40,362 nt of DNA. Source: an uncultured Chloroflexales bacterium. GTDB taxonomy: Bacteria > Chloroflexota > Chloroflexia > Chloroflexales > Chloroflexaceae. Both the position numbers and the translations under genes were made by a program. Each line of letters begins with the position of its first letter. The stretch's first letter is position 1. Shown here piece after piece: positions 443 to 20,326 of this stretch. The notes beneath the pieces were generated by a model that saw only the letters and a program-made list of their open reading frames with translations, searched no databases and had not been told where the DNA came from. The stretch spans positions 1 through 40,362 of the forward strand of contig CAKZSI010000010.1 in the NCBI GenBank assembly GCA_937918935.1, given 5' to 3'.

Positions 443-2680
443 TTACACAAGCGCCGGCGCCAGGGGCCGCAGGGTGCGCCGCTCCCGGCAGCCGCGCCAG
501 ACGCCTAGCTGGTAGGCGCCGAGTTCCAGCCAGTACAATCCGACAAATAATGGTAGACTCAGCCGCGGGTGCAGGCGGTAGTAGTCGAGCACGGGCGGGG
601 TGAGGCACAGCAAGAGCAGTGCTGGCAGCATGGGCCGCCAGAGCAGGGCCAGGGCCAGCAGGGGCAGACTGTAGTAGCGGGTGACGTTGGCTCCCAGGTG
701 GTAGAACGCGGCCCGATGTTGCAGCAGCACCGCGGCGCTCACCCGGCCCCAGGGCAGGTGTACGCCGTGTCGCCGCAGTTCGCGCCGCTTACGCCCGACC
801 TCGCGTGCCAGAGCCACGCTGATGCCGATGGCGATCAGCCCGGCCAGGGCCGGGGCGCTCCAGACGGCGATCAGGGCCGCCAGGAACGCCAGGGCCATTG
901 GCGGGAGGGCCATGGTGCGCCGGCCCGCAGGGTGGCGCCGTTGGAGGTCGGCCTCCGAGGAGGCGTAGTCGGCGCGGCGATGCAGCAGCGCCCCCAGGTG
1001 CACGCGGTGGTGATGCACCACCACGCCCTCGGCCACGTAGCGTGCCTGTGCGCCTGTGGCCAGCGCCCGCCAGATCAGGTCAACATCCTCCCCCAGGCGC
1101 ATCGCCGGGTCGAAGCCGCCGATGCGCAATAGCAGACTACGCCGGATCATCAGGTTGCACGAGGGCATGTAGGTAATCGTTTCACCGGGGCCGACCGGCC
1201 CGCTGAGCGGCCCCATGTCCAGCGGCGAGCGCGCGGCCTCGAAGGCCGCCACCGGCCCCTCTGGCGGCGGCGCGAGCACTCGCCCGCCTGCGATCTCGAC
1301 CCCCGGCTCGTCCAGTGCGGCCACGAGTGTACGCAGCCAGCCGGGGGCGGCGACGCAGTCGTTATCCAGAAAGGCCAGCACCTCGCCGCGGGCCAGTTCC
1401 GCCGCGCGGTTGCGGGCCGCCGACTGGCCGATGTTATGGTCCTGGCGCAGCAGGCGGATGGGCAGCCCGGCCAGGGCCGGGGCCAGCGGCGGAGCGGAGG
1501 CGTCGTCAACCACGATCACCTCCAGCAATTCGGCGGGGTAGTCCTGGGCCAGCAGCGACTCCACGCAGGCCCGGGTGGCCTCTGGGCGCCCGTGGGCCGG
1601 GACGATGGCCGTGACGGTGGGCAGGTGCTCCGGTGGCGGAGATTGTTTGATGAGCAGGCGCCGCCGGGCCAGGGAGTCGAGGAAGGTGGTTGTTTCGGAG
1701 AGCGACAACTCTGGACGCGCAGTGACCAGTTCCAGGGCGGTGCTGCCGCCGTTGAGCGCCGCAAGGGTGGCGAAGGCCCGCTGGTTGAGGCGCAGGGCCA
1801 CCAGGGGCCGCATGGAGAGCAGCGTGCCACCGTCTGCGCCGGGGCGCAGTTCCAGTCCCTGGTTGAGCGAATAGCGCGGACCCTGGCCGCGGCGCAGCAG
1901 CAGGTGGGCGTTGCCGCCGCGCTCGATGCGGCTGCCCTCGCCTTCGAGCCAGAGACCGGCAGCCTCCAGGTGGCGCAGGAGGGTGGCCGGCTGACGCCAG
2001 AGGTGCATGGGATGATCCGCGTCGGCGTTGCCGGGCAAGTGGATGAAGAGGGCGCCGCCGGGGCGCAGGGCCGTGGCCAGGGCCGTCAGGGTCGCGCCGG
2101 GATCGGGCAGGTGCTCGAAGACATCCACCGCGCTGATGAAGTCGAAGGCTGCCGCGGGCAGATCCGGCGTGCCGGGGGCCAGGTCAATGACCTGCGCTGG
2201 CAGTCCGCGCCGGGCGAAGCGCCAGCGGGCGTACTCGTTCAGGCGCGGGTTGACGTCGGCCAGGGTTACCTCCAGGCCATAGTAGGCCAGCAGCAGCCCC
2301 AGCGAGCCGATGCCGCTGCCGAAGTCGAGGGCGCTACGGGCGTGGTGGGTCAGGGCCGCTTCCAGGGCCTCGACCTGCACCAGGGCGCTGTGGTCCTCCA
2401 CCAGGGCGTGCCACCAGGTCAGGTCGTAGAGGTAGGTATCGCCGTGGCGATAGAAGCCGGTAATGGCCGCCGGGGTAGCGGGGGCCCGTTCACGCCAGGC
2501 GCGCGCCAGTTCACCGGCGGCACGGCGGCAGCGGGCTTCCACCTCCTCCACCGGCTGCTCCAGGAACGCGGCCAGTTCGGCCACCAGGCTGCGCGCCAGG
2601 TCGGGTTGCCCGGGGAGGGTCAGCGCGTCGGCCCAGCGCTGGCGGCGGTCAGTCCGAAGGGTTGAAGACGGCGTCATCAC
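443..2680 (-). CDS. mftF: Mycofactocin glycosyltransferase MftF with fused N-terminal SAM methyltransferase domain
   Basis: A 745-residue protein with three parts. Residues about 75-265 are a class I SAM methyltransferase (motif I LDFGSGIGSLG at 118-128, acidic AD at 141-142, VDVFEHLPDPG near 185-195). Residues about 268-346 resemble the PqqD/MftB-like peptide-recognition segment found at the start of normal MftF. Residues about 354-575 are a GT2 glycosyltransferase (VTAIVPAHGRPE, VVDDAS at 390-395, DND at 439-441, GEDVDL at 530-535), followed by hydrophobic segments near 590-630 and 670-715 that suggest membrane attachment. MftF adds beta-1,4-glucose units to the mature peptide. Ordinary MftF is about 470 residues and lacks the methyltransferase. 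The start is GTG at 2680 (or ATG one codon later), overlapping the mftE stop, so translation is probably coupled. The MftF call rests on domain order plus context; what the extra domain methylates is unknown. Confidence 0.88.
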   Translation of the reverse strand: MMTPSSTLRTDRRQRWADALTLPGQPDLARSLVAELAAFLEQPVEEVEARCRRAAGELARAWRERAPATPAAITGFYRHGDTYLYDLTWWHALVEDHSALVQVEALEAALTHHARSALDFGSGIGSLGLLLAYYGLEVTLADVNPRLNEYARWRFARRGLPAQVIDLAPGTPDLPAAAFDFISAVDVFEHLPDPGATLTALATALRPGGALFIHLPGNADADHPMHLWRQPATLLRHLEAAGLWLEGEGSRIERGGNAHLLLRRGQGPRYSLNQGLELRPGADGGTLLSMRPLVALRLNQRAFATLAALNGGSTALELVTARPELSLSETTTFLDSLARRRLLIKQSPPPEHLPTVTAIVPAHGRPEATRACVESLLAQDYPAELLEVIVVDDASAPPLAPALAGLPIRLLRQDHNIGQSAARNRAAELARGEVLAFLDNDCVAAPGWLRTLVAALDEPGVEIAGGRVLAPPPEGPVAAFEAARSPLDMGPLSGPVGPGETITYMPSCNLMIRRSLLLRIGGFDPAMRLGEDVDLIWRALATGAQARYVAEGVVVHHHRVHLGALLHRRADYASSEADLQRRHPAGRRTMALPPMALAFLAALIAVWSAPALAGLIAIGISVALAREVGRKRRELRRHGVHLPWGRVSAAVLLQHRAAFYHLGANVTRYYSLPLLALALLWRPMLPALLLLCLTPPVLDYYRLHPRLSLPLFVGLYWLELGAYQLGVWRGCRERRTLRPLAPALV

Positions 2681-3435
2681 GCGAGCAGTTCCTTTGCCAG
2701 CGCGCTGGCCCGGACGTCGAGGTAGCGCTCGCCACGAGCGGCGCAGGCACGCGCCGGGTCGCCAAGCACGCCGTTGGGCGTCACCGCCTTGAGGCCCAGG
2801 CGTTGCAGTGTATCCACAATTGTAACCATATCGCCGCGGTACCCGGCCTCGGCGGCCTCGGCGCGCACCAGGTCGGGGCGCAGCCAGAGCACTTCCGAGG
2901 TCTCGCCCTCGCCGGCGTGCAGACCGAACTCCTCGGGCGCGATCCCCGCTTCGGCGGCCACGGCCAGGACCGCCTCGTCGGGGGCGAGGGTCTCGGCGGG
3001 CAGCCAGACGCGCAGGGTGGGCAGTTCACGGCGCAGGCGTTCGGTCGCCAGGGCCAGGGCCCGCCCGTTGCCGCCGTGGGCCGAGAGCAGTACCAGCCGG
3101 GTGATGCCCCAGGCGGCCATGCGCCGCGCGCAATCCACGATCACCGCGGCGAGGGTGGCGGCGTCAAGGCTCAACAGGCCGGGAAAGCCCGCGTGTTCGT
3201 CGGAGCAGCCGATGGGCAGGACCGGGGCCACCAGCGCCCCCGGCAGCCGTGCCGCCAGGCGTTGGGCCAGGGCCTCGGCCCGAAGCGTATCGGTGCCGAG
3301 GGGCAGGTGCGGCCCGTGCTGCTCGGTGGCCCCCAGGGGCAGAATGAGCGTCGTTGCACCCTCGGCCACAGCGTGGGCCACCTCGGGCCAGGTCAGATCG
3401 GCCAGGTCGGGTTGTTCTGCTATGGATGGAGACAT
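2677..3435 (-). CDS. mftE: Mycofactocin precursor peptide peptidase MftE (creatininase family)
   Basis: A 252-residue creatininase-family metallopeptidase. Metal ligands are visible in GATEQHGPHLPLGTDT (Glu38, His40, Asp49), in SAHGGNGRA (about residue 119) and in GEGETSEVLW (about 178). In the mycofactocin pathway MftE cuts the MftC-modified MftA peptide before the C-terminal Val-Tyr-derived moiety, releasing AHDP. The ATG at 3435 is chosen because the first conserved block starts shortly after it; the open frame runs further upstream through non-conserved, hairpin-containing DNA. The stop overlaps the mftF start by four bases. A 148-bp gap separates it from fixA. Creatininase homologues occur elsewhere, but adjacency to mftF makes MftE the best reading. 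Confidence 0.9.
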   Translation of the reverse strand: MSPSIAEQPDLADLTWPEVAHAVAEGATTLILPLGATEQHGPHLPLGTDTLRAEALAQRLAARLPGALVAPVLPIGCSDEHAGFPGLLSLDAATLAAVIVDCARRMAAWGITRLVLLSAHGGNGRALALATERLRRELPTLRVWLPAETLAPDEAVLAVAAEAGIAPEEFGLHAGEGETSEVLWLRPDLVRAEAAEAGYRGDMVTIVDTLQRLGLKAVTPNGVLGDPARACAARGERYLDVRASALAKELLA

Positions 3436-3517
3436 ACGTTCTTCAGCAGGCCAACCAGAGGATTGTACTACCTCTCCTTTGTCACGTGCCGCGGTTTCCG
3501 CTGTGAGCAGGTTCGGC

Positions 3518-3534
3518 GGGGGCCGCAGGCCCCC
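3518..3534. repeat. GC hairpin GGGGGCC-GCA-GGCCCCC
   Basis: Perfect 7-bp arms around a GCA loop, in the 148-bp gap between fixA and mftE. A shorter copy, GGGCC-GCA-GGCCC, lies at 17777-17789 upstream of the methanol dehydrogenase gene, and both are followed by C-rich runs (GCAACCCCC or CAACCCC). There is no T-tract, so a classical terminator is unlikely. It could be a REP-like unit or an RNA-stabilising hairpin between cistrons. Confidence 0.6.
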
Positions 3535-3583
3535 GCAACCCCCACCAGGGGCAAAAAGCGGAGCAACAGGATTACCCTGCAGA

Positions 3584-4441
3584 TTAAACAAATCCCCTTT
3601 CTCTTAGAAACTCCACCACCACCTCGGCCATCTGATCGGGGGGGCCTTCCAGCACCTTGCCGGATTTGCGGGTCACGCCAGCGGTGATGATCTGCGTAAT
3701 GCGCTCGTGGGCCGGGCGGGTGCTGTCGGGGGTGAAGATCGGGCGCGTACGTGGGCGCGGCGGCGTCACCATGCGCGTGGTGGCGGCGGGGAAGGCCAGG
3801 TCGGCTGGCTCCAGGCCCAGATCGTCGAGTTCGCTGACGGGAATAGCGGCGCGCTCGGCGCGCATCAACCCGGTGAGGCTGGCGTGGCGCAGGCGGGCGA
3901 TGCCGGCTTCGACTGCCAGAACGGCGGGCAGGCGGACCTCCAGTTCCTCGCGCGCCCCGCGGTCGAGGCGTCGCTGCACGCGGGCCAGATCGCCCTCCAG
4001 GGTGATCTGGGTGACATCGCACACCACCGGCCACTCCAGGAACTCGGCGAGGAGGGCCGGAAGCTGGCCACTGCCCTGGTCGCTGCTACGGGTGCCGCAG
4101 AGCACCAGGTCGGGGGCCTCACCGCGCTGCAACCATGCCGCCAGCAGCAGCGCCGTCTGCGCCGGGGCCTGAAGGGGAAGAAACGGCGTCCAGAGCCGCC
4201 GTGCCTCCGTTGCGCCAGCGGCGAGAGCCAGGCGCAACACCGCGTCGGCGGCGGGCGGGCCGACGCACAGCGCGCTGACGTGGCCCTCTGCGCCGGCCAG
4301 TTGCAGGGCCACTTCCAGAGCCGCCGTGTCGGCCGGGCTGGCGATGTAGAGCAGGCGGCGCGTGTCGAGCGCCGCGGTCAGCGGATCAACCTCGACCGTG
4401 GCCGGGTCGGGTACCTGTTTGAGACAGACGGCGATACGCAT
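3584..4441 (-). CDS. fixA: Electron transfer flavoprotein beta subunit (FixA/EtfB)
   Basis: A 285-residue ETF beta chain opening MRIAVCLKQVPDP, the standard EtfB/FixA start, with the AMP/FAD-binding GTRSSDQGSGQLPALLAE block (about 110-130) and a C-terminal tail ending EFLRERGFV. With FixB it forms the soluble ETF heterodimer that collects electrons from dehydrogenases. The ATG at 4441 shares one base with the fixX stop (TAATG) and has GGAGG upstream, showing tight coupling. The gene order fixB-fixC-fixX-fixA differs from the classical fixABCX order. In bifurcating Fix systems this subunit binds the bifurcating FAD and NADH; whether that holds here cannot be decided by reading alone. Confidence 0.92.
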   Translation of the reverse strand: MRIAVCLKQVPDPATVEVDPLTAALDTRRLLYIASPADTAALEVALQLAGAEGHVSALCVGPPAADAVLRLALAAGATEARRLWTPFLPLQAPAQTALLLAAWLQRGEAPDLVLCGTRSSDQGSGQLPALLAEFLEWPVVCDVTQITLEGDLARVQRRLDRGAREELEVRLPAVLAVEAGIARLRHASLTGLMRAERAAIPVSELDDLGLEPADLAFPAATTRMVTPPRPRTRPIFTPDSTRPAHERITQIITAGVTRKSGKVLEGPPDQMAEVVVEFLRERGFV

Positions 4442-4725
4442 TATGCCTCCCGAAAGGTCACCCCATAGCCGCCCCGCGGGTACGACCACTGAATGGCGCC
4501 CTCCTGATTACAGGCGATATAGCAGGTTCCGCACTCAAAGCACTCCTCGTAGTTGAAGAGAATGCCCCCATCGTCCAGCGGCACGAAGAGGTTGGCCGGG
4601 CAGACATAGACGCAGGCTCGCACGGAGCAATTGTTGCACACCGCGGCATTGACCACGATGTGCGGCCGGTCGTCCACTTTGAAGCGCACCGTGCGCATCC
4701 GTTCTTCGAGAGGAATGCTCACCAT
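4441..4725 (-). CDS. fixX: Ferredoxin-like protein FixX
   Basis: A 94-residue ferredoxin-like protein. A canonical [4Fe-4S] motif lies at Cys62-x2-Cys65-x2-Cys68-x3-Cys72 (ECFECGTCYIAC), and a second, looser set at Cys30, Cys33, Cys38 and Cys42 (VCNNCSVRACVYVCP). FixX is the iron-sulfur partner of FixC and corresponds to the Fe-S domain of ETF-quinone oxidoreductase. The ATG at 4725 follows GGGAGG with a nine-base spacing, and the gene overlaps the end of fixC by seven bases. The length matches the usual FixX size of about 95-100 residues. Confidence 0.93.
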   Translation of the reverse strand: MVSIPLEERMRTVRFKVDDRPHIVVNAAVCNNCSVRACVYVCPANLFVPLDDGGILFNYEECFECGTCYIACNQEGAIQWSYPRGGYGVTFREA

Positions 4726-6155
4726 CCGAATGACCTCCCTGCTTGCCAGGCGTCCTGGAGCACATGCACTGGCGAGATATTGGCGCGGCGGAGCGTATCG
4801 AGGGCGATGGGCAGAAGCTTGCGTTTGGGTCCGCCGTTGACGCGGAAGACCTGCTCGGCGCCAGCGGCGATGAGTTCCGGGTACAGGTTCTGTAGCCGCG
4901 GGCTGTTGACCAGCCCCGGCGCGTGGCGGTAGCTGGCAAAATCGGTGAGCACGTGGCGCGCGCGCAGGCGCTCGACGTAGCGGGCCAGCGAACGGGCCGA
5001 AAAGTCACGTTCCTGATGGGCGGCCACAGCCGCTTCACCCGCGGCCATACCTGACTGGATGGCGTAGTTGATGCCTTCAAGGTACAGCCCGGCCACGAAG
5101 CACAACGCCGCCGCGTCGCCCGCCACCAGCATGCCGCCGGTATAGAGCTTCGGCAGCATATTCCAGCCCGCTTCGGGGATGACGTGGGCCGAATACTCGC
5201 GCACCCTGCCGCCCCGTACCAGGGGGGCCACCGAGGGGTGGCGCTTGAAGGTTTCCAGCAACTCGTAGGGGCGGCGCCTGTGCTCGGCCAGCGAGGAGAT
5301 CTGCCCGATGACGCCCAGGGAGAGGCTGTCGCGGTTGGTGTAGAGGAACCCGCCGCCGCTGACCTCTTCAGTGATCGCCCCGATGTACTCGATCGCCAGG
5401 CCGTCGTTGTCGTGGAGGTGAAAGCGTTCGCGAATGGCGCCTTCGTCGAGTTCCAGCACCTCCTTCACCCCGAGCGACATCTCGTGGGCGTGGAACTCGC
5501 GTTGCAGGCCGGCATTCTTGGCCAGGAAGGAATTGGCGCCATCGCAGGCGATCACCACGTCGGCACGCAGGTCGCCCTCGTCGCGGCGCACGCGCACCCC
5601 CACCACCTGGTCGTCCTCCCAGAGCACCTCGTCCACCACTGCGGCGTTGAGCAGGAAGGCGCCGGCAGCGACGGCCTGGTCGGCGAACCAGCGGTCGAAC
5701 TTCGGGCGCAGGATGCTGAAGCCGTTGTAGGGTGGCTCGGCGAAGCGGGTGGTGCGAAAGTCAATCGCCACCGAGGTCTCGGCGGTCATAAAGGCCAGCA
5801 CGCGGCGGGTCAGATAGCGTTCGACGGGGGCCTGTTCCCACCAGTTGGGGATCAGTTCGTTCAGGATGGCGCTGCCGTAGAAGGCCGCGCCGGAGACGTT
5901 TTTGGACCCGGGGTACTCGCCGCGCTCCAGCAGCAGCACCTTCAGCCCGGCGCGGGCGGCCACCAGCGCGGCGGCGCTACCGGCCGGCCCTGCGCCGACG
6001 ACGATCACATCGAAATGCTCGGCGCCCGGGCGTGGCGCGCTACGCTGGCGCCGGGGTTGGGGCGCGCCGTGCGGGGTAGAGCCATTCTTTATGCCGATGA
6101 GGCGGTGCACCCGCTGCACCAGCGCCAGCGAAGCCTCTTTGCTCAAGAAAGCCAT
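4719..6155 (-). CDS. fixC: FAD-dependent ETF:quinone oxidoreductase-like protein FixC
   Basis: A 478-residue flavoprotein with the dinucleotide-binding motif DVIVVGAGPAGSAAAL (about residues 48-63), the GSKNVSGAAFYG segment typical of the ETF-QO family, a second motif VVIACDGANSFLAKNAGL, and the FAD pyrophosphate site GGMLVAGDAAALCFVAGLYLEG. Together with FixX it takes electrons from the FixAB ETF and reduces membrane quinone. The chosen ATG (6155) has AAGGA upstream; it gives a 45-residue basic, proline-rich N-terminal extension before the Rossmann fold, longer than usual, so a later start cannot be excluded. It begins ten bases after the fixB stop. Confidence 0.93.
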   Translation of the reverse strand: MAFLSKEASLALVQRVHRLIGIKNGSTPHGAPQPRRQRSAPRPGAEHFDVIVVGAGPAGSAAALVAARAGLKVLLLERGEYPGSKNVSGAAFYGSAILNELIPNWWEQAPVERYLTRRVLAFMTAETSVAIDFRTTRFAEPPYNGFSILRPKFDRWFADQAVAAGAFLLNAAVVDEVLWEDDQVVGVRVRRDEGDLRADVVIACDGANSFLAKNAGLQREFHAHEMSLGVKEVLELDEGAIRERFHLHDNDGLAIEYIGAITEEVSGGGFLYTNRDSLSLGVIGQISSLAEHRRRPYELLETFKRHPSVAPLVRGGRVREYSAHVIPEAGWNMLPKLYTGGMLVAGDAAALCFVAGLYLEGINYAIQSGMAAGEAAVAAHQERDFSARSLARYVERLRARHVLTDFASYRHAPGLVNSPRLQNLYPELIAAGAEQVFRVNGGPKRKLLPIALDTLRRANISPVHVLQDAWQAGRSFGW

Positions 6156-6165: not shown

Positions 6166-7203
6166 TCAGGCCGCAACCTGGCGGCTGTGGTCGTTGTTCT
6201 TCGTATCTTGCCGCGATTGCGGCGTCAGGCGTTCCAGCAGGGCCGGAATGAGTTGCCGCACGTCGGCCACGATGCCCAGGTCGGCCAGGCCGAAGATGGG
6301 CGCGGTGCGGTCGAGGTTGACGGCGATCACGGTCTCGCTCCCGTTCATACCCGAGGTGTGCTGGCTGGCCCCCGAGATGCCCAGAGCCAGGTAGAGTTTG
6401 GGAGCGACGATCTTGCCGGTCGTGCCGATGAAGCGATCCGCCGGCAGCCAGCCCCGGTCGGAGATGACGCGCGTCCCGCCCACCGCCGCCTGGAGCCGGT
6501 TGCCCAGTTCCCAGAGTTGCGCCACGCCCTCCGGACCGCCCAGCCCCAGGCCGCCGGCGACGATGCGCTCGGCCTCACGCAGGTCAACCGTGCGCGGGTC
6601 GGCGGGGATGGTGCGCACGGGCCGGTCGCGGAGGCGGGCAGTGTCGATGGTGGGGTGGACGTGGCTCACCTGGGGGCGGCGGCGCACGTCGCCCCGCCCG
6701 ATACCACGGGTGTTGGGCGCCAGGGTGGCGCAGATGACCGTCGCCCCCGGGCAGGCCAGGTGCTCGTGGCGCGCCCCGCCGTAGGTGGGGCGCACGAAGA
6801 CGAGGTCTGCGCCGTCCTGGCGCACTTCCAGGCAGTGACTCACCATAGGGGCGTGCAGGCGCAACGCCAGCCGGGGTAGCCATGCGCGCATGTGGCTGGT
6901 GTCGGGGGCCAGGAGTAGCACGCCGCCGTAGGAGCGGTGGCTCAGGGGACGGATGACCGGCTCCAGCGCCGCCAGCCAGGCGTCGGCGCTGGCCCGGGCC
7001 AGGGCCTCGTGTTCGATCAATGTCACCTCGTCGGCGCCGTGCGCCGCGAGGGTAACTGCCTGTTCCTCGAGACCGGCGCCCGGCAGCAGCGCCCGCACCC
7101 GCAGGTCGCGCGCGCTGGCCAGATCGCGGGCCTCTTCGACGCACTCCAGCGTGGGCCGCGTCACGGCCCCGTGCTCGGTCTCAGCGATTACGACGATTTG
7201 CAT
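6166..7203 (-). CDS. fixB: Electron transfer flavoprotein alpha subunit (FixB/EtfA)
   Basis: A 345-residue ETF alpha chain. The C-terminal FAD domain is clear: SDRGWLPADRFIGTTGKIV, then LYLALGISGASQHTSGM and VIAVNLDRTAPIFGLADLGIVAD. The N-terminal half is the ETF alpha/beta nucleotide fold, here shorter and more divergent than in housekeeping EtfA. It pairs with FixA. It is the first fix gene in transcription order, 112 bp after the OYE-type enzyme at 7316-9274, and starts at ATG 7203 after AGGAATC. A basic, asparagine-rich tail (SRQDTKNNDHSRQVAA) ends the protein. Confidence 0.92.
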   Translation of the reverse strand: MQIVVIAETEHGAVTRPTLECVEEARDLASARDLRVRALLPGAGLEEQAVTLAAHGADEVTLIEHEALARASADAWLAALEPVIRPLSHRSYGGVLLLAPDTSHMRAWLPRLALRLHAPMVSHCLEVRQDGADLVFVRPTYGGARHEHLACPGATVICATLAPNTRGIGRGDVRRRPQVSHVHPTIDTARLRDRPVRTIPADPRTVDLREAERIVAGGLGLGGPEGVAQLWELGNRLQAAVGGTRVISDRGWLPADRFIGTTGKIVAPKLYLALGISGASQHTSGMNGSETVIAVNLDRTAPIFGLADLGIVADVRQLIPALLERLTPQSRQDTKNNDHSRQVAA

Positions 7204-12589: not shown

Positions 12590-13531
12590 TCAGCGATCCA
12601 CTACCAACCAGCAGCCGTGCAGTTCAAAGGTCTGGAAGCGGCCCCCGAGTTCGCGGCCCAGGATCGCCAGGCGTTCGGTGGTAAAGGTCTGGCGATGGCC
12701 GAAACGCGGATCGGGCTGTTCTTCGAGGGGCACGGTCACGATCAGACGCCGCGCGGTGAGTTGCCAGAGGGCGCGCAGGGCGGTCAGAGTTTGCTCCGGG
12801 GCCAGGTGCTCCAGCACGTGCACGCAGGTCACCGTGTCGAACTGCCCCAGACGCGCCAGGTCGTCACCGAGCAGGTCGGCGACGGTGAAGCTGACGCTGG
12901 CCAGCCCGGCGCGCCGGGCATAGGCATTGGCGAAGCCGACCAGGGCGGCGTCGAGGTCGCAGCCGACGATCCTGTCCGGCGGGGTGCCGCGACGGGCCAG
13001 GAGCAGGGGCAGGAAGCCGAAACACGTGCCGGCGTCGAGGAGGCTCGCGCCGCGCGCCAGGTCCATCAGCCGGCGGTAGATCGCCCCGAAGGGGCCGATA
13101 AAATCAATGGCTGGCTCGTCGCTCTGCATAGCCCCTTCGAGGGCCGCCAATGAGTTGACATAAAAACGGTGCCAGGCGCGGCCTTCGTTGCTGTCCATCG
13201 AGCGCACAATCGCCCCGACGCAGTGCTCAAAGAGGGTCTGCTGGTCGTGGGCGAAAGGATCATCAGCGGACGACAGTTCGGGCAAACGTCCCCGCGCGGC
13301 GCTCAGCAGGGGCAGCAGTTCATTGGCGACGTAGAAGCCCAGGTTGTTGTCAATCTGCTCAGGACGAAAGGAATGCACCACTACCAGTTCCGGGCCGGCG
13401 GCCGGGGTGTGCGGGGCCGGTTCCAGACGGTAGACCGTAAAATGCTGGCTACCGGCCGTGGCGGGAAGGTTCCCGGCCAGGCATGCGGTAAGGGCGGCGT
13501 GGCGCCAGGGTGACAGTACCAGCGGGACCAT
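12590..13531 (-). CDS. mftM: Class I SAM methyltransferase, probable mycofactocin oligosaccharide methyltransferase MftM
   Basis: A 313-residue protein. The N-terminal half contains a RAWHRFYVNSLAALEG segment and the C-terminal half is a class I SAM methyltransferase (SLLDAGTCFGFLPLLLARRG near 164, VTCVHVLEHLAPEQ near 232, then RRLIVTVPLEEQPDPRFGH). In mycobacteria MftM methylates a glucose of the mycofactocin sugar chain. The WHRFY block and the D-G/A-x-C/S-FGFLPLLLA motif agree with my memory of MftM, and the gene sits in the mft operon, but I could not run a comparison. Its stop-to-start contact with the VWA gene upstream (two-base gap) and a GGAGA ribosome site at the ATG show cotranscription. 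It is distinct from the methyltransferase fused to MftF. Confidence 0.68.
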   Translation of the reverse strand: MVPLVLSPWRHAALTACLAGNLPATAGSQHFTVYRLEPAPHTPAAGPELVVVHSFRPEQIDNNLGFYVANELLPLLSAARGRLPELSSADDPFAHDQQTLFEHCVGAIVRSMDSNEGRAWHRFYVNSLAALEGAMQSDEPAIDFIGPFGAIYRRLMDLARGASLLDAGTCFGFLPLLLARRGTPPDRIVGCDLDAALVGFANAYARRAGLASVSFTVADLLGDDLARLGQFDTVTCVHVLEHLAPEQTLTALRALWQLTARRLIVTVPLEEQPDPRFGHRQTFTTERLAILGRELGGRFQTFELHGCWLVVDR

Positions 13532-13533: not shown

Positions 13534-15015
13534 CTATCTCCGATTGGCAAACGAGCTACGCACCAGGTTTTCGGCCACACGCCCCAGTTGATCCAGATTG
13601 CGCACCACTTCGACCTTGTGGCAGATCGGCGCATAGGTAGGCATATCTGACGCACCGAGGCCCCAGCTCCCGCGGGACTCCGGCGTCAGCCAGATCACCT
13701 GTTTGCAGCGCCGGCGCAACTCTTCGAGGATCCAGGCATTAGGCGGGTTGCGATTGCCGCGCCCGTCGCCCAGAATGATCAGCGTGGTGCGGCTGGTGGC
13801 CGCCGAGCGGTAGCGCTCGTAGAAGATCTCCAGCGCCCGGCCGTAATTGCTATTCTCTTCGGTATTGATAATCTCGCCGCTGAAAACGCGGTCGATCGTC
13901 TCCTCCAGGCTGGAGCGCTCGATCTCGGTGCTGATTTCGGCCAGATCGCTCACAAAGACAAAGCTGCGCACCCGGCTGAAGAGCGATTGCAGACTGTAGA
14001 CCAGGTGGAGCATAAAGCGCGCCGTAGTGCGCACCGACAGACTGACGTCGCAGATCACCGTCAGGCGCGGGCGCTCCTCGCGCTGGTTGGAGAGCACCGG
14101 GAAGAAGGGCACCCCGTCGTACTTCAGATTGCCGCGAATGGTGCGCGAGACGTTGATCCGTCCGCGCCGGTTGGCAGTTCGGCGGTAGGAGAGCGCACCG
14201 CGCATCTGCCGACCCAGGCGGCGGATAATCTCGTCCATCTGGCGGCGCTCGTGGTCGCTGAAGCGGTAGCTCCGGCGGGGCCGGGGCGGGGCCGGGGCGG
14301 CGGTGCGGGGGTGCTGCAGGGCAGCCTCACGGGCGCGGTAGCGCCGCAGCAGCTCGGGCAGCCGGGTGAGGCCCCCGGCGAGTCGGGCCTCCAGTTGCTC
14401 CAGCAGGGCCTCGTCCACCTCGAGCGCGCGGAGGTCGGCGAGCAGGGCCTCAACCGCGCCGCCCAGATCAATTTCGTCGCCGGAGTCGCCCAGGCTGAGT
14501 TCCCCGCCGCCGGGCATGCCGGGGTTGTGGCGGGCGTTGACGTGGAAGGTCGGCTTATAGCCGTCCTGGCCGGGATCCTTGCGCTGCTGCAACAGCAGGT
14601 GCTGCCCGAAGAGCGAGAGATCAACGCCTTCATACTCCGGCGTCACCGGGGCGCGGGTGGTGCGATCGGTATCAATCTCGACGGGGGCGATCTCTGCGCG
14701 CGCCCCCTCCGCTGCCGCGGGGACGTCGGCGCCACTCGCGTCGGGCAGGAGGGTGACGGCGGCATCACCGGGCGCTTCTGGTGCAGCCCCATGACTGGGG
14801 GCCGGCAGGCTGAAGTACAGGTCAAACAGCCGGTCAAACTCGGCGATGGCCTGGCACTGCTTCACCAGCGTACTGCGGAGCGTCACGCGCACCGTCTCGC
14901 GGTCATCAACGCCCGCCAGGGCCAGGGCCTGCAGGGCGTCGATCGTCTCGGCGGGCGAAACGGCGATGCCGTGGTGTTTCAGCAGCGCAACGAAGCGCGT
15001 GATCGGGACGTCCAT
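13534..15015 (-). CDS. VWA-domain protein (CoxE-like), partner of the MoxR ATPase
   Basis: A 493-residue protein. Residues about 1-70 form a helical N-terminus, followed by a low-complexity acidic and Ala/Pro-rich middle, an arginine-rich stretch (about 235-290), and a C-terminal von Willebrand A domain with the MIDAS motif DVSLS near 317-321 and the ILGDGRGNRN segment. It resembles CoxE-type VWA proteins that act with a MoxR ATPase to load metals into, or activate, oxidoreductases. No CO dehydrogenase genes are visible, so the client is more likely within this locus: the Mno-type methanol dehydrogenase, encoded just beyond the ATPase gene, or the tungsten AOR. The ATG follows GGAGGAG, two bases after the ATPase stop. 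The family is clear; the client is inferred. Confidence 0.88.
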   Translation of the reverse strand: MDVPITRFVALLKHHGIAVSPAETIDALQALALAGVDDRETVRVTLRSTLVKQCQAIAEFDRLFDLYFSLPAPSHGAAPEAPGDAAVTLLPDASGADVPAAAEGARAEIAPVEIDTDRTTRAPVTPEYEGVDLSLFGQHLLLQQRKDPGQDGYKPTFHVNARHNPGMPGGGELSLGDSGDEIDLGGAVEALLADLRALEVDEALLEQLEARLAGGLTRLPELLRRYRAREAALQHPRTAAPAPPRPRRSYRFSDHERRQMDEIIRRLGRQMRGALSYRRTANRRGRINVSRTIRGNLKYDGVPFFPVLSNQREERPRLTVICDVSLSVRTTARFMLHLVYSLQSLFSRVRSFVFVSDLAEISTEIERSSLEETIDRVFSGEIINTEENSNYGRALEIFYERYRSAATSRTTLIILGDGRGNRNPPNAWILEELRRRCKQVIWLTPESRGSWGLGASDMPTYAPICHKVEVVRNLDQLGRVAENLVRSSFANRR

Positions 15016-15017: not shown

Positions 15018-16091
15018 CTACTCCTCCCGACGGGAACTGAAATAGGCCCGTTCGTTGGTGCGGTAGCGTTCCTGCTGCTCGCGCAGATCCATGTTGTCGA
15101 AGGTCAGGCGCGCGGTCCCATTGCCGCTCTCCAGGAGCATCGGCAACTGGGCGCTCACCTGCTGCACATCGCGGTCGTACTTGAGGATCAGTTGCAGCGT
15201 CTCTTCTACCAGTTCGCGGTTCAACTGATCGGCATTGAGCAGCACCAGGGCCTGGGCCCAGTCGAGGGTCTCGCTGATGCTGGGCGCCTTGCGCAGATCC
15301 ATGGCGCGGATGCGGCGGATGAGGCTCACCACCTGGCGGGCCAGGTTCTCGCGCAACTCCGGCACCTTGAGACGAATAATTTCCAGTTCGCGTTCTTCAT
15401 CGGGGTAACCGATCGCCAGGTGCAGGCAGCGCCGTTTCAGCGCGTCGCTCAACTCGCGAGTGTTGTTGCCAGTAATGCACACCAGAGGCGGATGCCGGGC
15501 GACGATGGTGCCGATTTCGGGCACCGTCACCTGGAAATCACTCAACACTTCGAGCAAGAAAGCCTCGAACTGCTCCTCGGCGCGGTCAATTTCATCAATC
15601 AGCAGCACCACCGGCTCCGGCGAGGCAATCGCCTGGAGGATGGGGCGGCGTACCATGAAGTGTTCCGAGAAGAACACATCCTCGTGCTGGCGCAGGTACT
15701 CCACCGCGGCGCGCAGGTCCTCCATCTCGGCGAACAGGCTGCCGATCTTCTCGCGCAGGATCTGCGTGTAGAGCAACTGCTTGCCGTACTCCCACTCATA
15801 CAGCGCCCGGGCCTCGTCGAGGCCCTCGTAGCACTGCAGACGGATGAGCGAGCGGTTCAGCGCCCGCGCCACCGTCTTGGCCAGTTCGGTCTTGCCGACC
15901 CCCGCCGGCCCCTCGATCAGCACCGGCTTATTCATCTTGAGGGCGAGAAAGATCACCGTCGCCAGCTTGCGGTCGCAGATGTAGCGCTGCTGGCGCAGGA
16001 GGGTCACTACCTGGTCGATCGTTTCAAACACTGATGTATGCTCCGTGTGCTGGAGGGCGGCGATGGAGGTGACGAAACGTTCTGGCTGCAT
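15018..16091 (-). CDS. MoxR-family AAA+ ATPase (CoxD-like)
   Basis: A 357-residue AAA+ ATPase with Walker A GPAGVGKT at 61-68, Walker B VVLLIDEIDRA (about 160-170), sensor 1 VCITGNNTREL and arginine finger region ALKRRCLHLAIGYPDEERE, as in the MoxR family. MoxR proteins work with VWA partners to assemble or activate enzyme complexes, the original case being methanol dehydrogenase of methylotrophs. It lies between the methanol dehydrogenase gene (162 bp upstream) and the VWA gene (two-base gap), which favours a role in activating an oxidoreductase of this locus. The annotated ATG at 16091 has GGGCGAG close upstream; a start a few codons later is possible. Confidence 0.9.
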   Translation of the reverse strand: MQPERFVTSIAALQHTEHTSVFETIDQVVTLLRQQRYICDRKLATVIFLALKMNKPVLIEGPAGVGKTELAKTVARALNRSLIRLQCYEGLDEARALYEWEYGKQLLYTQILREKIGSLFAEMEDLRAAVEYLRQHEDVFFSEHFMVRRPILQAIASPEPVVLLIDEIDRAEEQFEAFLLEVLSDFQVTVPEIGTIVARHPPLVCITGNNTRELSDALKRRCLHLAIGYPDEERELEIIRLKVPELRENLARQVVSLIRRIRAMDLRKAPSISETLDWAQALVLLNADQLNRELVEETLQLILKYDRDVQQVSAQLPMLLESGNGTARLTFDNMDLREQQERYRTNERAYFSSRREE

Positions 16092-16232: not shown

Positions 16233-16253
16233 ACGTTCCCCGGAAGCTAGCGC

Positions 16254-17525
16254 CTAGTAGTACGACTCGCGCATGGCGTGGGCCACCACCGGCCAGACCG
16301 ACTCGAAGGTCACTTCGCGCGGGTTGCCGGGGGTCGAGCCATCGCCGAGAACGTGCTTGGAGACGCGGTCCACGTCGTTATCGTCGCCGATGATGCGCGG
16401 GCCGCTCCACTTCTCGTACACGCCCTTGCCCATGCGCGACTTGCTGTACTCGCCGACGCTCTGGAAGTTCGGCGGAATGCCCACATCCTTGGACAGGCGG
16501 ATGGCGGCCTCAACTGCGCGCTCGGCGGCGGACACGTCGCTCAGCCCGTCCACCTTCTCGCCCATGGCGCGCGCGATGTCGCGGTAGCGCCGGTAGTTCG
16601 CGGGCATGTTGAATGCCCAGACCCGCGGCAGGGCGATGGCGTTGTTCAGGCCGTGGTGGCTGTCGTAGTAGGCGCTGACCGCGTGCGAGATCGAGTGGAT
16701 AATGCCCAGACCGCCGCTGTTGAAGGCCTGCGCGCCGATGTACTGCGCCCAGACCATGTTGGCCCAGGCCTCGTAGTTGTTGCGGTTGGCCACCACTTCG
16801 CGCAGGTTCTGGGCCACCAGTTCGATGCACTTCAGCGCGCCGCCGAGGCTGGCGGGGAAGTCAAGCCGCGAGACATACGGCTCCGAGCCGTGGGCCAGCA
16901 CGTCGAAGCCACAGAAGGCGGTCAGGTCCTGCGGCATCGTCTTGAACACGTAGGGGTCGTTGATCCCCAGCGTAACGATGCAGCTATCATCGAAGCCCAG
17001 CCACTTGCGCGGAGCGCGCTCGGAGGTGGTGTCGGTGATCACGAAGGCCCAGCTCGTCTCCGATCCGGTACCGGCGGTGGTGTTAATGGCGATGTGGGGC
17101 GGATTCTTCTGGCGGTCGGGGTCCGACCGGTTGAAGCCGTCGAACTCATTGATGTTGCGCCCGTCGTGGGCGACCACCAGACGCGCGCCCTTGGTGGCGT
17201 CGGTCACGCTTCCGCCACCGACGGACACGAAGCTGTCGCACTTCTCGCGCATGAAGAGGTCGGCGGCCTCCATGCAGTTATAGTCCTTGGGGTTCGACTC
17301 GACCTTATCGTAGATCACCACATCAATGCCCTGGTAGCGGAGCTTGCCCGCGACGTCCTCCACCAGGTCGGTGCCACGGATACCCGAGGTCATCAGCAGG
17401 GTGCGCTTGAAGCCGAGCTTCTTCGCCTCGACGCCAACCATCTCATAGGCCCCTGGACCGATCAGCCCCCGTGGGAACGGGTGGAACTCCTTAATCGGGA
17501 ACTGCCAGAGCTTGTGCGCTTCCAT
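16254..17525 (-). CDS. mno: NDMA-dependent methanol dehydrogenase, iron-containing ADH family (Mno/Mdo-like)
   Basis: A 423-residue group III (iron-containing) alcohol dehydrogenase. It opens WQFPIKEFHPFPRGLIGPGA and contains KLGFKRTLLMT, YDKVESNPKDYN, VSVGGGSVTDATKGAR, NTTAGTGSETSWAFVITDT, FDVLAHGSEPYVSRLDF and HSISHAVSAYYDSHHGLNN; these match, with the same length, the actinobacterial methanol:NDMA oxidoreductases as I remember them. Metal ligands are the Asp and His of FDVLAHG and the histidines of the HSISH and DSHHG segments. These enzymes hold NADH so tightly that an outside acceptor is needed, and mycofactocin fills that role. An AAAGGAG site lies ten bases before the ATG. It begins the second transcriptional block of the locus, after a 525-bp gap. 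Confidence 0.92.
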   Translation of the reverse strand: MEAHKLWQFPIKEFHPFPRGLIGPGAYEMVGVEAKKLGFKRTLLMTSGIRGTDLVEDVAGKLRYQGIDVVIYDKVESNPKDYNCMEAADLFMREKCDSFVSVGGGSVTDATKGARLVVAHDGRNINEFDGFNRSDPDRQKNPPHIAINTTAGTGSETSWAFVITDTTSERAPRKWLGFDDSCIVTLGINDPYVFKTMPQDLTAFCGFDVLAHGSEPYVSRLDFPASLGGALKCIELVAQNLREVVANRNNYEAWANMVWAQYIGAQAFNSGGLGIIHSISHAVSAYYDSHHGLNNAIALPRVWAFNMPANYRRYRDIARAMGEKVDGLSDVSAAERAVEAAIRLSKDVGIPPNFQSVGEYSKSRMGKGVYEKWSGPRIIGDDNDVDRVSKHVLGDGSTPGNPREVTFESVWPVVAHAMRESYY

Positions 17526-17821
17526 TCGTCTTGACTCCTTTGTTCAAGTGACGGTGGGCGAGGCAAGGCGCCTGCCCTGAGACCCCCTCATCGGGACGTC
17601 GCCAGATCTGGCTGCGAACCGGACTCTCCGCACGGATGGACCGAACCCCGGCGCCGGGTGATATCGAACGAGCTCCCGCCGGCCTTGCGGGAGAACGAAA
17701 GGCTTCTGAGATTGCTCCTCTGCGGGGAGGTCTGGACGGGCCAGGCCCCGCCGAAAGAAACATCATGCTACCTCGAGGGCCGCAGGCCCCCAACCCCACG
17801 TGTAGAGCAGTGCAACCTTGC

Positions 17822-17851
17822 GTTATAAGGTCGAGGTCATGGAATTGCGAA
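17822..17851 (-). promoter_or_regulatory. Possible promoter for the mno block
   Basis: On the minus strand TTCGCA (17851-17846) and TATAAC (17827-17822) are separated by 18 bases, matching sigma-70 boxes at four and five of six positions. It lies in the AT-rich part of the gap and points at mno. No extended -10 is present and the leader would be about 290 bases, so this is only a candidate. Confidence 0.35.
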
Positions 17852-17900
17852 CGTTTAACAGGGCGGTTAGAGTATAGTTAATAGTGAAAAGTTTTGCCTA

Positions 17901-17914
17901 CTGCCATATGGCAG
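17901..17914. promoter_or_regulatory. Perfect 14-bp palindrome CTGCCATATGGCAG, operator candidate
   Basis: An uninterrupted palindrome in the AT-rich control region, about 50-80 bp upstream of the possible mno promoter. Dimeric regulators such as NarL/LuxR-type response regulators bind sites of this size. The neighbouring response regulator or the one at 23369-24013 are possible binders, but nothing in the sequence proves it. Confidence 0.4.
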
Positions 17915-18050
17915 GTATTTTGTGATGAAATCTATTTCGCATTGCGTCATAATTGCTGAGACGGGACTTCTTTCGAGGTCGCCATGGACCCGTTCAGGCG
18001 AGGTTACACCTCCCCGTGCCCCTCCAGGCGACGTGGGTCTGAAGCCTGGT

Positions 18051-18719
18051 TTACTCATCAGCCATACGCAGCAGACCCATCTCGACGGCCCGCACCGCGG
18101 CGTGTGTACGCCCGCTGACGTGCAATTTGGCGATAATCTGCTCAACATACGCTTTCACGGTACCGCGGCTCAGGGCCAGGTCGCTGGCGATCTCGGCGTT
18201 GGTTTTGCCCTGCGCCAGCAGGCGCAAGACATCGAGTTCGCGCGGGGTCAACGTCTCCAGTGCAGGCGATGCAGGGTCGTAGATCTGTTTGAGCCGCGAC
18301 GCCTCATCAGGTGCGCTGATCAGCGTCTGGCCCTGGCGCACCTGGCGCACGGCCTCGACCAGGGCAGCGCGGGTGATATTCTTCAGTAACCAGCCATCAA
18401 GTCCGTAGCGGGCCATACGGGTCTGATCCAGACGGTCGCCCTGGGGCGAGAGGACAATCACCCGCGTTCCCATCTGCTTGATCCGTTGGGCCGCTTCGAT
18501 CCCGTTGAGTATCGGCATGCGTTCATCGAGGATGGCCACATCGGGGCGCAGCCGGGCGCAGAGAGCTACTGCTTCCTGACCATCGCTCGCAACCCCCACG
18601 ACGCACAAATCCGGCTCGGCCTTCAATACCGTACACAACCCGATCCGCATGAGTTCAAAGTCATCGGCAATGACAATGCGTGTCGGGGTGTTCGCCTTGT
18701 GAGGATTGGCGTCTTCCAT
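18051..18719 (-). CDS. NarL/LuxR-family response regulator within the mft operon
   Basis: A 222-residue two-component regulator. The receiver domain has Asp19-Asp20, phosphoacceptor Asp65 (AILDERMP) and the Lys of LLKNITRA; the C-terminal LuxR helix-turn-helix reads TPRELDVLRLLAQGKTNAEIASDLALSRGTVKAYVEQI. The usual conserved Thr/Ser before the lysine lies in a divergent VIVLSPQGDR segment, so switching may be unusual. It begins 26 bp after the mftB stop, with GGAGAGGG upstream, so it is probably cotranscribed with mftA, the SDR gene and mftB. No kinase gene is next to it; the kinase at 21874-23193 on the other strand is a possible partner. Its likely target is the control region directly downstream, in front of mno. 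Confidence 0.9.
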   Translation of the reverse strand: MEDANPHKANTPTRIVIADDFELMRIGLCTVLKAEPDLCVVGVASDGQEAVALCARLRPDVAILDERMPILNGIEAAQRIKQMGTRVIVLSPQGDRLDQTRMARYGLDGWLLKNITRAALVEAVRQVRQGQTLISAPDEASRLKQIYDPASPALETLTPRELDVLRLLAQGKTNAEIASDLALSRGTVKAYVEQIIAKLHVSGRTHAAVRAVEMGLLRMADE

Positions 18720-18745
18720 GGCAGCCCTCTCCCGCGAAGCGGCGA

Positions 18746-19066
18746 TCAGGCCGGCGCACTCCCTGCCGCGACGGCGTGTGGAGCAGACGGTTCGGGGGCC
18801 TCTGGTACAACCCTGGTCATGACGCCGAGGCGCTCAAGTTGCGCCAGGGCGTGGATGTAGCGGCCACGGGCTGGCTCGGGCGCGCCCAGGGCATCGAGCG
18901 CCTCACCCAGGGTTATGGCCCCGTCCAGGGTATTCAGCAGGCCGACCAGTTCAGGTGCGTGCAGGAAGTAGAGCCGGCGGTTGTCATAGCGGTAGATCAG
19001 CCCGCCGAAACGCTCGGCGCGGATGGCCGCATAGGGTGCGAGCCGGTAGATCGCGGTGAGTTCCAT
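18746..19066 (-). CDS. mftB: Mycofactocin peptide chaperone MftB
   Basis: A 106-residue RiPP recognition (PqqD-like) protein. The segment YRLAPYAAIRAERFGGLIYRYDNRRLYFLHAPELVGLL is the MftB signature: a Tyr/Pro start, a V/I-R-x-E-x-FG-x-L-x-Y strand and a FL-x-x-PELV helix. MftB binds the MftA leader and hands it to MftC. The C-terminal 20 residues are Ala/Pro-rich and not conserved. It lies 22 bp after the SDR stop; ATG 19066 is preceded by AGGCAGG. In many loci mftB directly follows mftA and precedes mftC; here an SDR gene comes first and mftC lies several kilobases further on. Confidence 0.93.
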   Translation of the reverse strand: MELTAIYRLAPYAAIRAERFGGLIYRYDNRRLYFLHAPELVGLLNTLDGAITLGEALDALGAPEPARGRYIHALAQLERLGVMTRVVPEAPEPSAPHAVAAGSAPA

Positions 19067-19088
19067 TAGTTGCCTGCCTTTTCCCTGG

Positions 19089-19907
19089 CTATGCCGGACA
19101 CCTGAGCATCTGGCCCGCGTCTACCTTCAACTCCAGACCGGTGACGTAACGCGCCTCGTCGGAGACCAGCCACAGGGCCGCGTTGGCAATGTCCTGCGGA
19201 TCCACCAGCGCCACGGGCAACAGGTTATCCTCGCGCAGTTGATCAACCAGTTCCTGGCGCAGCATCCCGGCGGCGCGGGCCATGCCGGTAATCAGCGGCG
19301 TATCCACTCCGGTCGGGTGAATGGTATTGACGGTGATCCCCGCGTGGGCCACTTCGATTGCCAGGCTGCGCGCCAGCCCGACCACGCCCCACTTCGCCGC
19401 GCAGTAGTGGGCCAACCCCGCCATGCCCTTCAGCCCGGCCACCGACGAGGTCATCACAATGCGCCCGCCCTGCCCGCGCTCCAGCATGTGGGGCACAACA
19501 TACTTGACCGCCAGCCAGGCGCCTTTCAGGTTGACATCGAGCATGATGTCCCACCACTCCTCGGTAATGTCCCAGGTGGCGGCCATGTCGGCGATACCGG
19601 CATTGCAGATCAGGATGTCGATATGCCCGAAGGTGTCAATCGTCTGGCGAACGGCCGCCTCCATTTCGGCGGCGTTGCGCACATCGGCGGTCAGGCTCAG
19701 GCAGCGGCGTCCCAGGGCGCGCACCTCTGCGACCGTTATCTCGAGGTCCTCGGCGGCTGCCAGGTGGTAGCGCGGATAGGGCAGATCGTGACAGATGTCC
19801 AGCGCCGCGATGTCAGCCCCGGCGCGGGCCAGGGTCACGGCATGCGCCCGTCCCTGGCCACGCGCTGCTCCGGTGATCAGGGCAACTTTACCTTCGAGTC
19901 GCTGCAT
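19089..19907 (-). CDS. Mycofactocin-coupled short-chain dehydrogenase/reductase
   Basis: A 272-residue SDR with cofactor motif TGAARGQGRAHA (about 12-23), an ALDICHDLPYPRYHLAAAEDLE insertion after the second strand, NAGIADM, the catalytic Ser of MTSSVAG and Tyr/Lys of YCAAKWG. The insertion with a PYP-rich stretch and the RGQGRAHA form of the glycine motif are hallmarks of the mycofactocin-coupled SDR group, whose NAD(H) does not exchange and whose electrons go to mycofactocin. Such enzymes oxidise diverse secondary or primary alcohols; the substrate here is unknown. ATG 19907 follows AAGGAG. It is the second gene after mftA, across a 245-bp gap. Confidence 0.9.
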   Translation of the reverse strand: MQRLEGKVALITGAARGQGRAHAVTLARAGADIAALDICHDLPYPRYHLAAAEDLEITVAEVRALGRRCLSLTADVRNAAEMEAAVRQTIDTFGHIDILICNAGIADMAATWDITEEWWDIMLDVNLKGAWLAVKYVVPHMLERGQGGRIVMTSSVAGLKGMAGLAHYCAAKWGVVGLARSLAIEVAHAGITVNTIHPTGVDTPLITGMARAAGMLRQELVDQLREDNLLPVALVDPQDIANAALWLVSDEARYVTGLELKVDAGQMLRCPA

Positions 19908-20103
19908 TGTTGCTCCTTCGGCGCTGCACGCGCATCACACGGTTTCAGCCATTGTCATCTTCCGCCAATCTGCCCCCTCCCGGTCTCGCCCCCCGCAAGG
20001 GGAGGCGCCCGGCGCCCTCCACGAGCGGGGGCAGTTCGGGGACGAGGCAGAACGCCGTGAATCAGGAAAGTGCTTGCCAACCGGGTGCGAGAAGGGTTCT
20101 CGT

Positions 20104-20122
20104 GGGAGGGCGAAGCCCTCCC
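20104..20122. repeat. GGGAGGGC-GAA-GCCCTCCC hairpin, between mftA and the SDR gene
   Basis: Perfect 8-bp arms, three-base loop, 30 bp downstream of the mftA stop codon. The same unit occurs at 27317-27335 and, shortened, at 32316-32332. At this place it could stabilise or partly end the mftA message so that much more precursor than enzyme is made, a common arrangement in RiPP operons. Confidence 0.65.
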
Positions 20123-20152
20123 GGTCGCTCCCCTAGGCGGCCCGTTTGCGCC

Positions 20153-20326
20153 TCAGTACACGCCGCACATCCCGTCAATGCTCACTTCTTCGACCACCAG
20201 CTCGGCCAGGATCTCCGGTCCGTCCTCGTTCGCCGGAGGCGCTTCGGCCTCATCAACCAGTTCGGTCGCTTCCAGGAGTTCGGCGCCCGCTTCGATCTCC
20301 TCCAGGGCGATGGGGCTGAGTTGCAT
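20153..20326 (-). CDS. mftA: Mycofactocin precursor peptide MftA
   Basis: A 57-residue ribosomal precursor, too short for a 60-residue gene-calling cut-off. The C-terminus is EEVSIDGMCGVY followed directly by TGA; the last Val-Tyr pair is the part that MftC and MftE turn into the redox-active core, and IDGMCGVY is the near-invariant end of this family. The leader is very acidic and Ala/Glu-rich (starts MQLSPIALEEIEAGAELL) and carries an APPANEDGP linker. It is longer than the precursors of about 30-45 residues seen in most species. A near-perfect ribosome site GAAGGAGG lies six bases before the ATG. The gene heads the minus-strand locus and faces the ErcA-like gene across a 388-bp divergent control region. 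Confidence 0.97.
   Translation of the reverse strand: MQLSPIALEEIEAGAELLEATELVDEAEAPPANEDGPEILAELVVEEVSIDGMCGVY

Follow-up and report, generated by a model that had tools for sequence, protein, structure and literature searches.

A six-gene flavoprotein block in the mftD position of a Chloroflexales mycofactocin locus, a probable substitute for MftD

To make mycofactocin by the known pathway, MftC and MftE yield the amine 3-amino-5-[(4-hydroxyphenyl)methyl]-4,4-dimethyl-2-pyrrolidinone (AHDP), which MftD deaminates to premycofactocin (PMFT), as passages of PMC7491314 describe. The stretch of DNA analysed here (the window; 40,362 nucleotides, contig CAKZSI010000010.1 of an uncultured Chloroflexales bacterium) carries a mycofactocin locus with mftA, mftB, mftC, mftE and mftF, and the place of mftD is taken by six genes, namely two FadH/old yellow enzyme (OYE) flavoenzymes, OYE1 and OYE2, and fixB, fixC, fixX and fixA, which encode an electron transfer flavoprotein (ETF) and an ETF-quinone oxidoreductase chain. 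MftD and OYE2 exclude each other in every set of genomes compared. These sequence data are best explained by a complete mycofactocin locus in which other enzymes carry out the final core-forming step. We put at roughly 0.65 the probability that the OYE pair performs MftD's oxidative deamination of AHDP and that a canonical-type ETF (FixAB) and then FixCX hand the electrons on to quinone; in the many mycofactocin makers that carry this six-gene chain instead of MftD, it would then probably perform the same oxidation and deliver the electrons to respiratory quinones.

Distribution of MftD and the OYE–Fix block

The genome carrying the window (as contig C10) comprises 4.60 Mb in 85 contigs and is 99.99% complete. 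With the MftD model TIGR03966 (cut-off 470.85 bits) its best match reached 23.5 bits, with nothing like MftD or the LldD family elsewhere in the genome. The MftG search, made with TIGR03970 and not with the smaller families TIGR04542 and NF038210, gave no match down to E ≤ 1e-3. Two genomes of the same genus (G094 and G198) likewise had nothing resembling MftD and no match to MftG. A reading made beforehand from the sequence alone had described mftA, B, C, E and F on one strand, with two FadH/OYE enzymes and fixABCX inside the block and neither MftD nor MftG in sight; profile matches, the precursor motif and the reading frames bear out this gene content, and the genome-wide searches extend the two absences beyond the window. 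Deletion of mftD in M. smegmatis leads to accumulation of AHDP and loss of mycofactocins (passages of PMC7491314), and in a genome this complete a replacement for MftD is therefore needed, if the cofactor is made.

The distribution of the two enzymes was compared using TIGR03997 (above 793.15 bits) for OYE2 and the TIGR03966 cut-off for MftD. Among 301 genomes of the phylum, 16 encoded MftC above its cut-off, of which 3 (all family f5) had MftD, 11 had OYE2 and none had both, while the remaining two (G036 and G244) held only OYE fragments at contig ends. A contig scan with the window's MftC returned 65 loci, 61 of them true (L129–L132, at 25–30% identity, are not MftC and were dropped), and genome-wide profile searches covered 49 genomes from these loci, with L074 and 11 other loci outside that set. 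MftD exceeded its cut-off in 18 of the 49 and OYE2 in 23, again never together; of the other eight, six carried an OYE scoring 509–787 bits or a fragment (G302, G308, G333, G336, G337 and G346) and two carried neither enzyme (G312 and G317). With G094 and G301, which are one genome, counted once, the 64 distinct mftC-bearing genomes comprise 21 with MftD, 33 with OYE2 and none with both (Fisher p = 1e-9, ignoring kinship). The same held for 396 evenly drawn Actinomycetota (MftD in 44, OYE2 in 9, both in none), a set in which about one genome with both was expected by chance and which is thus little proof alone; it shares G303, G329 and G349 with the 49, G329 being the chosen centre, itself OYE-positive. 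On the MftC tree, which left out L128 (too fragmented), L143 (the same genome as L068), and G059 and G132 (no region), at least eight changes separate the MftD and OYE states, so that the swap must have occurred repeatedly.

Two kinds of candidate counter-example were set aside. LldD-like proteins of OYE-positive genomes reached at best 310.5 bits (G341), against 569.9–731.0 bits for MftD above its cut-off, and are not hidden MftD. OYE-like proteins below the cut-off (about 400–575 bits) also occur in MftD-positive genomes; the nine inspected from this score band (from the MftD-positive G319, G322, G390, G461, G588 and G673, plus G502, G572 and G483) have no mft biosynthesis gene nearby and form a group of their own (support 98) outside the OYE2 clade. 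L201–L209 represent a wider actinobacterial group of OYE-family proteins that have no NADPH motif and no mft biosynthesis genes around them; L208 among them lies near FixA/FixB-like genes.

The two enzymes also share a slot. The next recognised gene after mftC in the 61 loci was OYE1 in 23, mftD in 17, mftE in 8 and a short-chain dehydrogenase/reductase (SDR) gene in 2, with none in 11, and no locus held MftD together with an OYE. OYE1 lay within 225 bp of mftC in 21 of its 23 loci, and mftD within 200 bp and on the same strand in 14 of its 17 (one mftD was on the opposite strand). The full order mftC-OYE1-OYE2-fixB-fixC-fixX-fixA-mftE/F recurs in the window, L068, L071, L073, L075, L077, L094, L101, L144 and L200, and also in L197, where an SDR gene on the other strand separates the OYEs. 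When eight Actinomycetota regions were chosen by OYE2 alone, fix genes adjoined the OYE in six and mft biosynthesis genes were present in five (L194, L195, L197, L199 and L200), with neither in L196 and L198. The earlier expectation that the fix genes of relatives stay linked to mft genes holds only in part: in family f24 (G148, G050 and G068), OYE1, OYE2 and fixBCXA lie together about 146–149 kb (nearest edges) from mftC on the same contig. The block is therefore not always linked to mftC, but its OYE and Fix genes are mostly found side by side.

The ETF follows the OYE as well. An mft-type ETF-beta of at least 145 bits occurred in 16 of the 49 genomes, all with OYE2 of at least 764 bits, and in 15 of the 23 with OYE2 above its cut-off, while the highest ETF-beta score among the matches listed for the 18 MftD-positive genomes was 104 bits. 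Fix thus goes with the OYE, and the simplest view is that it accepts the OYE's electrons. The shared slot and the 0 of 64 and 0 of 396 genomes holding both enzymes give good comparative support to the suggestion of the sequence-only reading that an OYE may stand in for MftD. The genes of the block and its locus, all on the minus strand, are as follows.

20153..20326, minus: mftA, 57-amino-acid precursor with C-terminal IDGMCGVY and GGAGG upstream (from motif and frame)
19089..19907, minus: mycofactocin-coupled SDR (TIGR03971, 356.0 bits; cut-off 300)
18746..19066, minus: mftB (TIGR03967, 80.3 bits; cut-off 33)
18051..18719, minus: LuxR-type response regulator, NarL/MadR-like (best matches below their cut-offs)
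16254..17525, minus: methanol dehydrogenase dependent on N,N-dimethyl-4-nitrosoaniline (NDMA), likely cofactor user (TIGR04266, 648.4 bits; cut-off 625)
15018..16091, minus: MadB-like AAA ATPase (NF047784, 368.9 bits; below cut-off 475)
13534..15015, minus: MadC-like von Willebrand factor A (VWA) protein (NF047783, 209.7 bits; below cut-off 600)
12590..13531, minus: MftM-like methyltransferase (NF041255, 167.5 bits; below cut-off 200)
11358..12410, minus: mftC, radical S-adenosylmethionine maturase (TIGR03962, 615.7 bits; cut-off 265)
9276..11258, minus: OYE1, FadH/OYE flavoenzyme; 4Fe-4S site and FAD motif retained, NADPH motif lost (TIGR03997, 799.5 bits)
7316..9274, minus: OYE2, the better conserved of the two FadH/OYE paralogues and the proposed AHDP dehydrogenase (TIGR03997, 982.4 bits)
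6166..7203, minus: fixB, mft-type ETF alpha (best family NF038209 mft_etfA, 176.6 bits; below cut-off 240)
4719..6155, minus: fixC, ETF-quinone oxidoreductase (T. maritima FixC 7koe_C, 268.3 bits)
4441..4725, minus: fixX, ferredoxin-like (NF011993, 67.6 bits; below cut-off 166)
3584..4441, minus: fixA, mft-type ETF beta, with Gln replacing the Gly of bifurcating ETFs (TIGR04503, 168.1 bits; below cut-off 200)
2677..3435, minus: mftE (TIGR03964, 182.3 bits; cut-off 172)
443..2677, minus: mftF with N-terminal methyltransferase domain (TIGR03965, 427.8 bits; cut-off 280; PF13489 and PF00535)

Proposed route from AHDP to the quinone pool

As in the known pathway, MftB and MftC would cyclise MftA, and MftE would set free the amine AHDP, which we infer to be the substrate of the block. 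Where other producers use MftD, itself an FMN (flavin mononucleotide) enzyme, the OYE pair (most likely OYE2, alone or together with OYE1) would then oxidise the C–N bond of AHDP on FMN, and hydrolysis of the imine would give the keto-amide premycofactocin and ammonia. Electrons would leave through the 4Fe-4S cluster to a contacting ETF (FixAB) and on through FixC and FixX to quinone, so that oxygen would not be needed; the potential of the couple of PMFT with its reduced form PMFTH2 is given as −255 mV in passages of PMC7491314. MftF would glycosylate the product, which the methanol dehydrogenase and the SDR would then use.

Sequence features of the OYEs are compatible with an ETF-linked enzyme. 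Both window proteins classify as 'OYE 2' by the NCBIfam cut-offs, the upstream OYE1 reaching 576.8 bits with the OYE_1 model against its cut-off of 627.9. A motif survey covered 32 OYE2 and 27 OYE1 sequences. All 59 keep the FAD motif, the four cysteines of the 4Fe-4S site were complete in 32 of 32 OYE2 and 24 of 27 OYE1, and the second GxGxxG (the NADPH site) was found in 0 of 32 OYE2 and 0 of 26 readable OYE1. Tyr166 of the E. coli 2,4-dienoyl-CoA reductase (DCR) is catalytic, and both window OYEs have Ser at this position. Nine relatives without mft biosynthesis neighbours lack the NADPH motif without exception, yet eight of them keep the equivalent Tyr; loss of the NADPH motif is therefore a trait of a wider group and was rejected as a mark of mft enzymes, and Ser is the more specific mark.

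An AlphaFold model of OYE2 (mean predicted local distance difference test score 73.7, with several loops below 50) gave full-length fold matches to 2-naphthoyl-CoA reductase (NCR), trimethylamine dehydrogenase (TMADH), histamine dehydrogenase, DCR and an amine oxidase, in near ties (Z 41.8–43.3). TMADH and histamine dehydrogenase use an ETF as acceptor via their 4Fe-4S cluster (passages of PMC6502838); the fold family thereby offers a precedent for chemistry at an amine carbon that hands its electrons to an ETF. The window shares with these systems the three-domain OYE fold, the cluster, the absence of an NADPH site, an adjoining ETF and the FixA motif SSDQ. In contrast, OYE2 has no Cys at the FMN-binding position and no known amine substrate, and an ETF-quinone oxidoreductase is included in its block. 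NCR is the best match of OYE2 in both sequence and fold (296.6 bits; Foldseek TM 0.85), and resembles it in having no NADPH site and a one-electron partner; according to passages of PMC6502838 it does not take NAD(P)H. However, NCR reduces a CoA ester, whereas OYE2 lies in a cofactor-making locus and has Ser at the DCR Tyr166 position.

All four Fix subunits (A, B, C and X) are present between OYE2 and mftE, and in classing the ETF most weight was given to FixA. Its residue 138 (numbered in the mechanical frame) corresponds to A. fermentans Gly123 and is Gln, which marks canonical ETFs, bifurcating ETF-beta having Gly there (passages of PMC12630350); it also has no RXGV, the bifurcation motif of ETF-beta (passages of PMC10734219). 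Its SSDQ is common to the M. methylotrophus ETF, the partner of TMADH. From these residues we predict, with moderate confidence, that the window encodes a canonical ETF (FixAB) together with a quinone reductase.

Several observations weigh against the assignment of MftD's reaction to the block. The nearest solved relative of OYE2 is a reductase, NCR; a Leu of OYE2 aligns with the Cys of histamine dehydrogenase that binds FMN covalently; loss of the NADPH motif, as noted, is not special to the mft OYEs; and two OYEs are present where a single MftD sufficed. MftD and OYE2 are both missing from G312 and G317. In 8 of the 23 OYE2 genomes (G310, G311, G314, G338, G342–G344 and G347) no mft-type ETF-beta was found at E ≤ 1e-25, although fixB and fixC adjoin the OYE in G338, G343 and G344, where FixA may have diverged beyond the model. 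Gly occupies the diagnostic FixA position in 4 of 16 aligned homologues, the window's not among them, and the canonical type is therefore perhaps not true of every member. Finally, a kinship-aware pair test that kept the genomes of neither kind found five independent pairs when limited to supported branches, and these averaged 3.7 with opposite states, 1.3 with no difference and 0 changing the same way, which is too few for significance. The same test on the MftD and OYE rows alone gave 4 of 4 pairs opposite and was set aside, as no row has both enzymes and the outcome is opposite by construction; in it G346 had been labelled OYE on a 577-bit match that possibly belongs to the other OYE group, and the test was rerun without doubtful rows.

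Alternative roles of the block

The sequence-only reading had cast the Fix proteins as a substitute for MftG and expected fixABCX to co-occur with loss of mftG. Under such a scheme OYE–Fix would reoxidise mycofactocinol to quinone, while AHDP would be deaminated by an unlinked enzyme or a side activity. Reoxidation does need a quinone route, about 25% of mftC genomes are without MftG and their substitute is described as an open question in passages of PMC11778925, and no genome with OYE2 above its cut-off has MftG above its own. However, MftG (as TIGR03970, not TIGR04542 or NF038210) exceeded its cut-off in just one of the 64 mftC genomes (G339, MftD-positive), and 20 of the 21 MftD-positive genomes lack it together with OYE2 and an mft-type ETF. 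Absence of MftG thus fails to separate the OYE-positive from the MftD-positive genomes, whereas the module follows the loss of MftD and fills the mftD slot; Fix as a plain MftG substitute was accordingly dropped as the leading explanation, and we regard it as unlikely. The module may nevertheless have a second role in mycofactocinol reoxidation. Among the MftD-positive genomes, those of family f5 (L145, L146 and L147) have no MftG above its cut-off, no OYE2 and no mft-type ETF. A tentative possibility, better than plain MftG replacement, is that the six genes do both jobs, one OYE deaminating AHDP and the other reoxidising mycofactocinol, with FixAB–FixCX shared as an oxygen-independent path to the quinone pool; this is a special case of the favoured deamination route, with which its odds overlap. 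It would account for finding neither MftD nor MftG, one ETF would serve both reactions, and the paralogues differ in active-site motifs and in conservation, with median pairwise identities of 54.5% for OYE2 (n = 32) and 40.8% for OYE1 (n = 27), or 51.4% versus 34.5% in the same 10 loci. Yet OYE1 may equally be a partner subunit, and MftD-positive genomes without MftG must reoxidise the cofactor by other means, so that a second job is not forced.

Mutual exclusion would also arise if OYE loci made a chemically different cofactor for the same dehydrogenases, with the amine kept or an extra unsaturation, and reductases do occur among the relatives of the OYEs. This seems improbable given that MftA has the same IDGMCGVY end and that the same user families, the SDR (TIGR03971) and the NDMA-dependent methanol dehydrogenase, stand in the locus. 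Least probable of all is a bifurcating FixABCX that would draw on NADH to supply low-potential electrons, either to MftC or to an OYE working as a reductase. As in the FixABCX/EtfABCX complexes all four genes are present, FixC is closest to T. maritima FixC, and FixB is nearer to bifurcating than to canonical ETF-alpha (5ol2, 163.9 bits, versus 116.7 for human) and in RPTYGG keeps the Arg of RPXFGG, a residue also found in other ETF groups (passages of PMC10734219). In contrast, the motifs of FixA set out above, the Gln at the Gly123 position, the missing RXGV and the SSDQ of the TMADH partner, disfavour bifurcation.

Comparison with known loci, earlier knowledge and neighbouring genes

The locus has in common with mycobacterial mftABCDEFG the precursor motif, MftB, MftC, MftE, MftF, the coupled SDR and the NDMA-type alcohol dehydrogenase, as well as the order A-B-C-[oxidation step]-E-F, and its MftB, MftC, MftE and MftF all exceed curated cut-offs. 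It differs in that neither MftD nor MftG was found, in the two flavoenzymes and the ETF/ETF-quinone chain of the mftD slot, and in a methanol-dehydrogenase block between mftB and mftC. The complete minus-strand order is mftA, SDR, mftB, response regulator, methanol dehydrogenase, MadB-like, MadC-like, MftM-like, mftC, OYE1, OYE2, fixB, fixC, fixX, fixA, mftE, mftF. The window's MftC shares 98% identity with its counterpart in a Chloroflexaceae bacterium, in keeping with a Chloroflexota genome.

That these OYE and ETF families are associated with mycofactocin is already known from their NCBIfam names (TIGR03996/TIGR03997 and TIGR04503/NF038209). Both window OYEs exceed the TIGR03997 cut-off and the ETF subunits match mft_etfA and mft_etfB best among the models listed (176.6/240 and 168.1/200 bits), below both cut-offs; the names give no reaction and do not mention MftD. 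Passages of Haft 2011 (PMC3023750) place TIGR03966 in most, not all, mycofactocin species, and term counts for that paper are 0 for FadH, old yellow and electron transfer flavoprotein. Among the papers listed by our searches, which mostly did not extend to subscription literature, no title or abstract described an MftD to OYE/ETF substitution. To this the present analysis adds that the two enzymes exclude each other and share a slot, and it proposes a mechanism. The exclusion pattern names a testable MftD substitute in genomes of Chloroflexota, Pseudomonadota and Actinomycetota. If the proposed route is correct, an ETF would connect the making of a peptide-derived cofactor with the quinone pool, and two families now named by association only would gain a function; if the block does both jobs, there would be two mycofactocin maturation systems, and in the second the cofactor would be tied to the quinone pool in its synthesis as well as in its turnover, without oxygen.

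The methyltransferase domain of MftF (PF13489) covers residues 115–233 of the mechanical frame. The same fusion occurs in Rubrobacter marinus (L128) and in L070, and the MftF matches in L071, L075 and L077 span the glycosyltransferase part only. Beside mftA, divergent genes on the plus strand (20706–24821) encode an ErcA-like Fe-alcohol dehydrogenase, a MadS-like kinase, a MadR-like regulator (these three scoring below their family cut-offs) and a DhaM/HPr-like protein, and may control the alcohol/mycofactocin block. The right part of the window (25720–40092) encodes PPK2 (as two matched stretches), a major facilitator superfamily transporter, EF-G and phosphoglycerate kinase.

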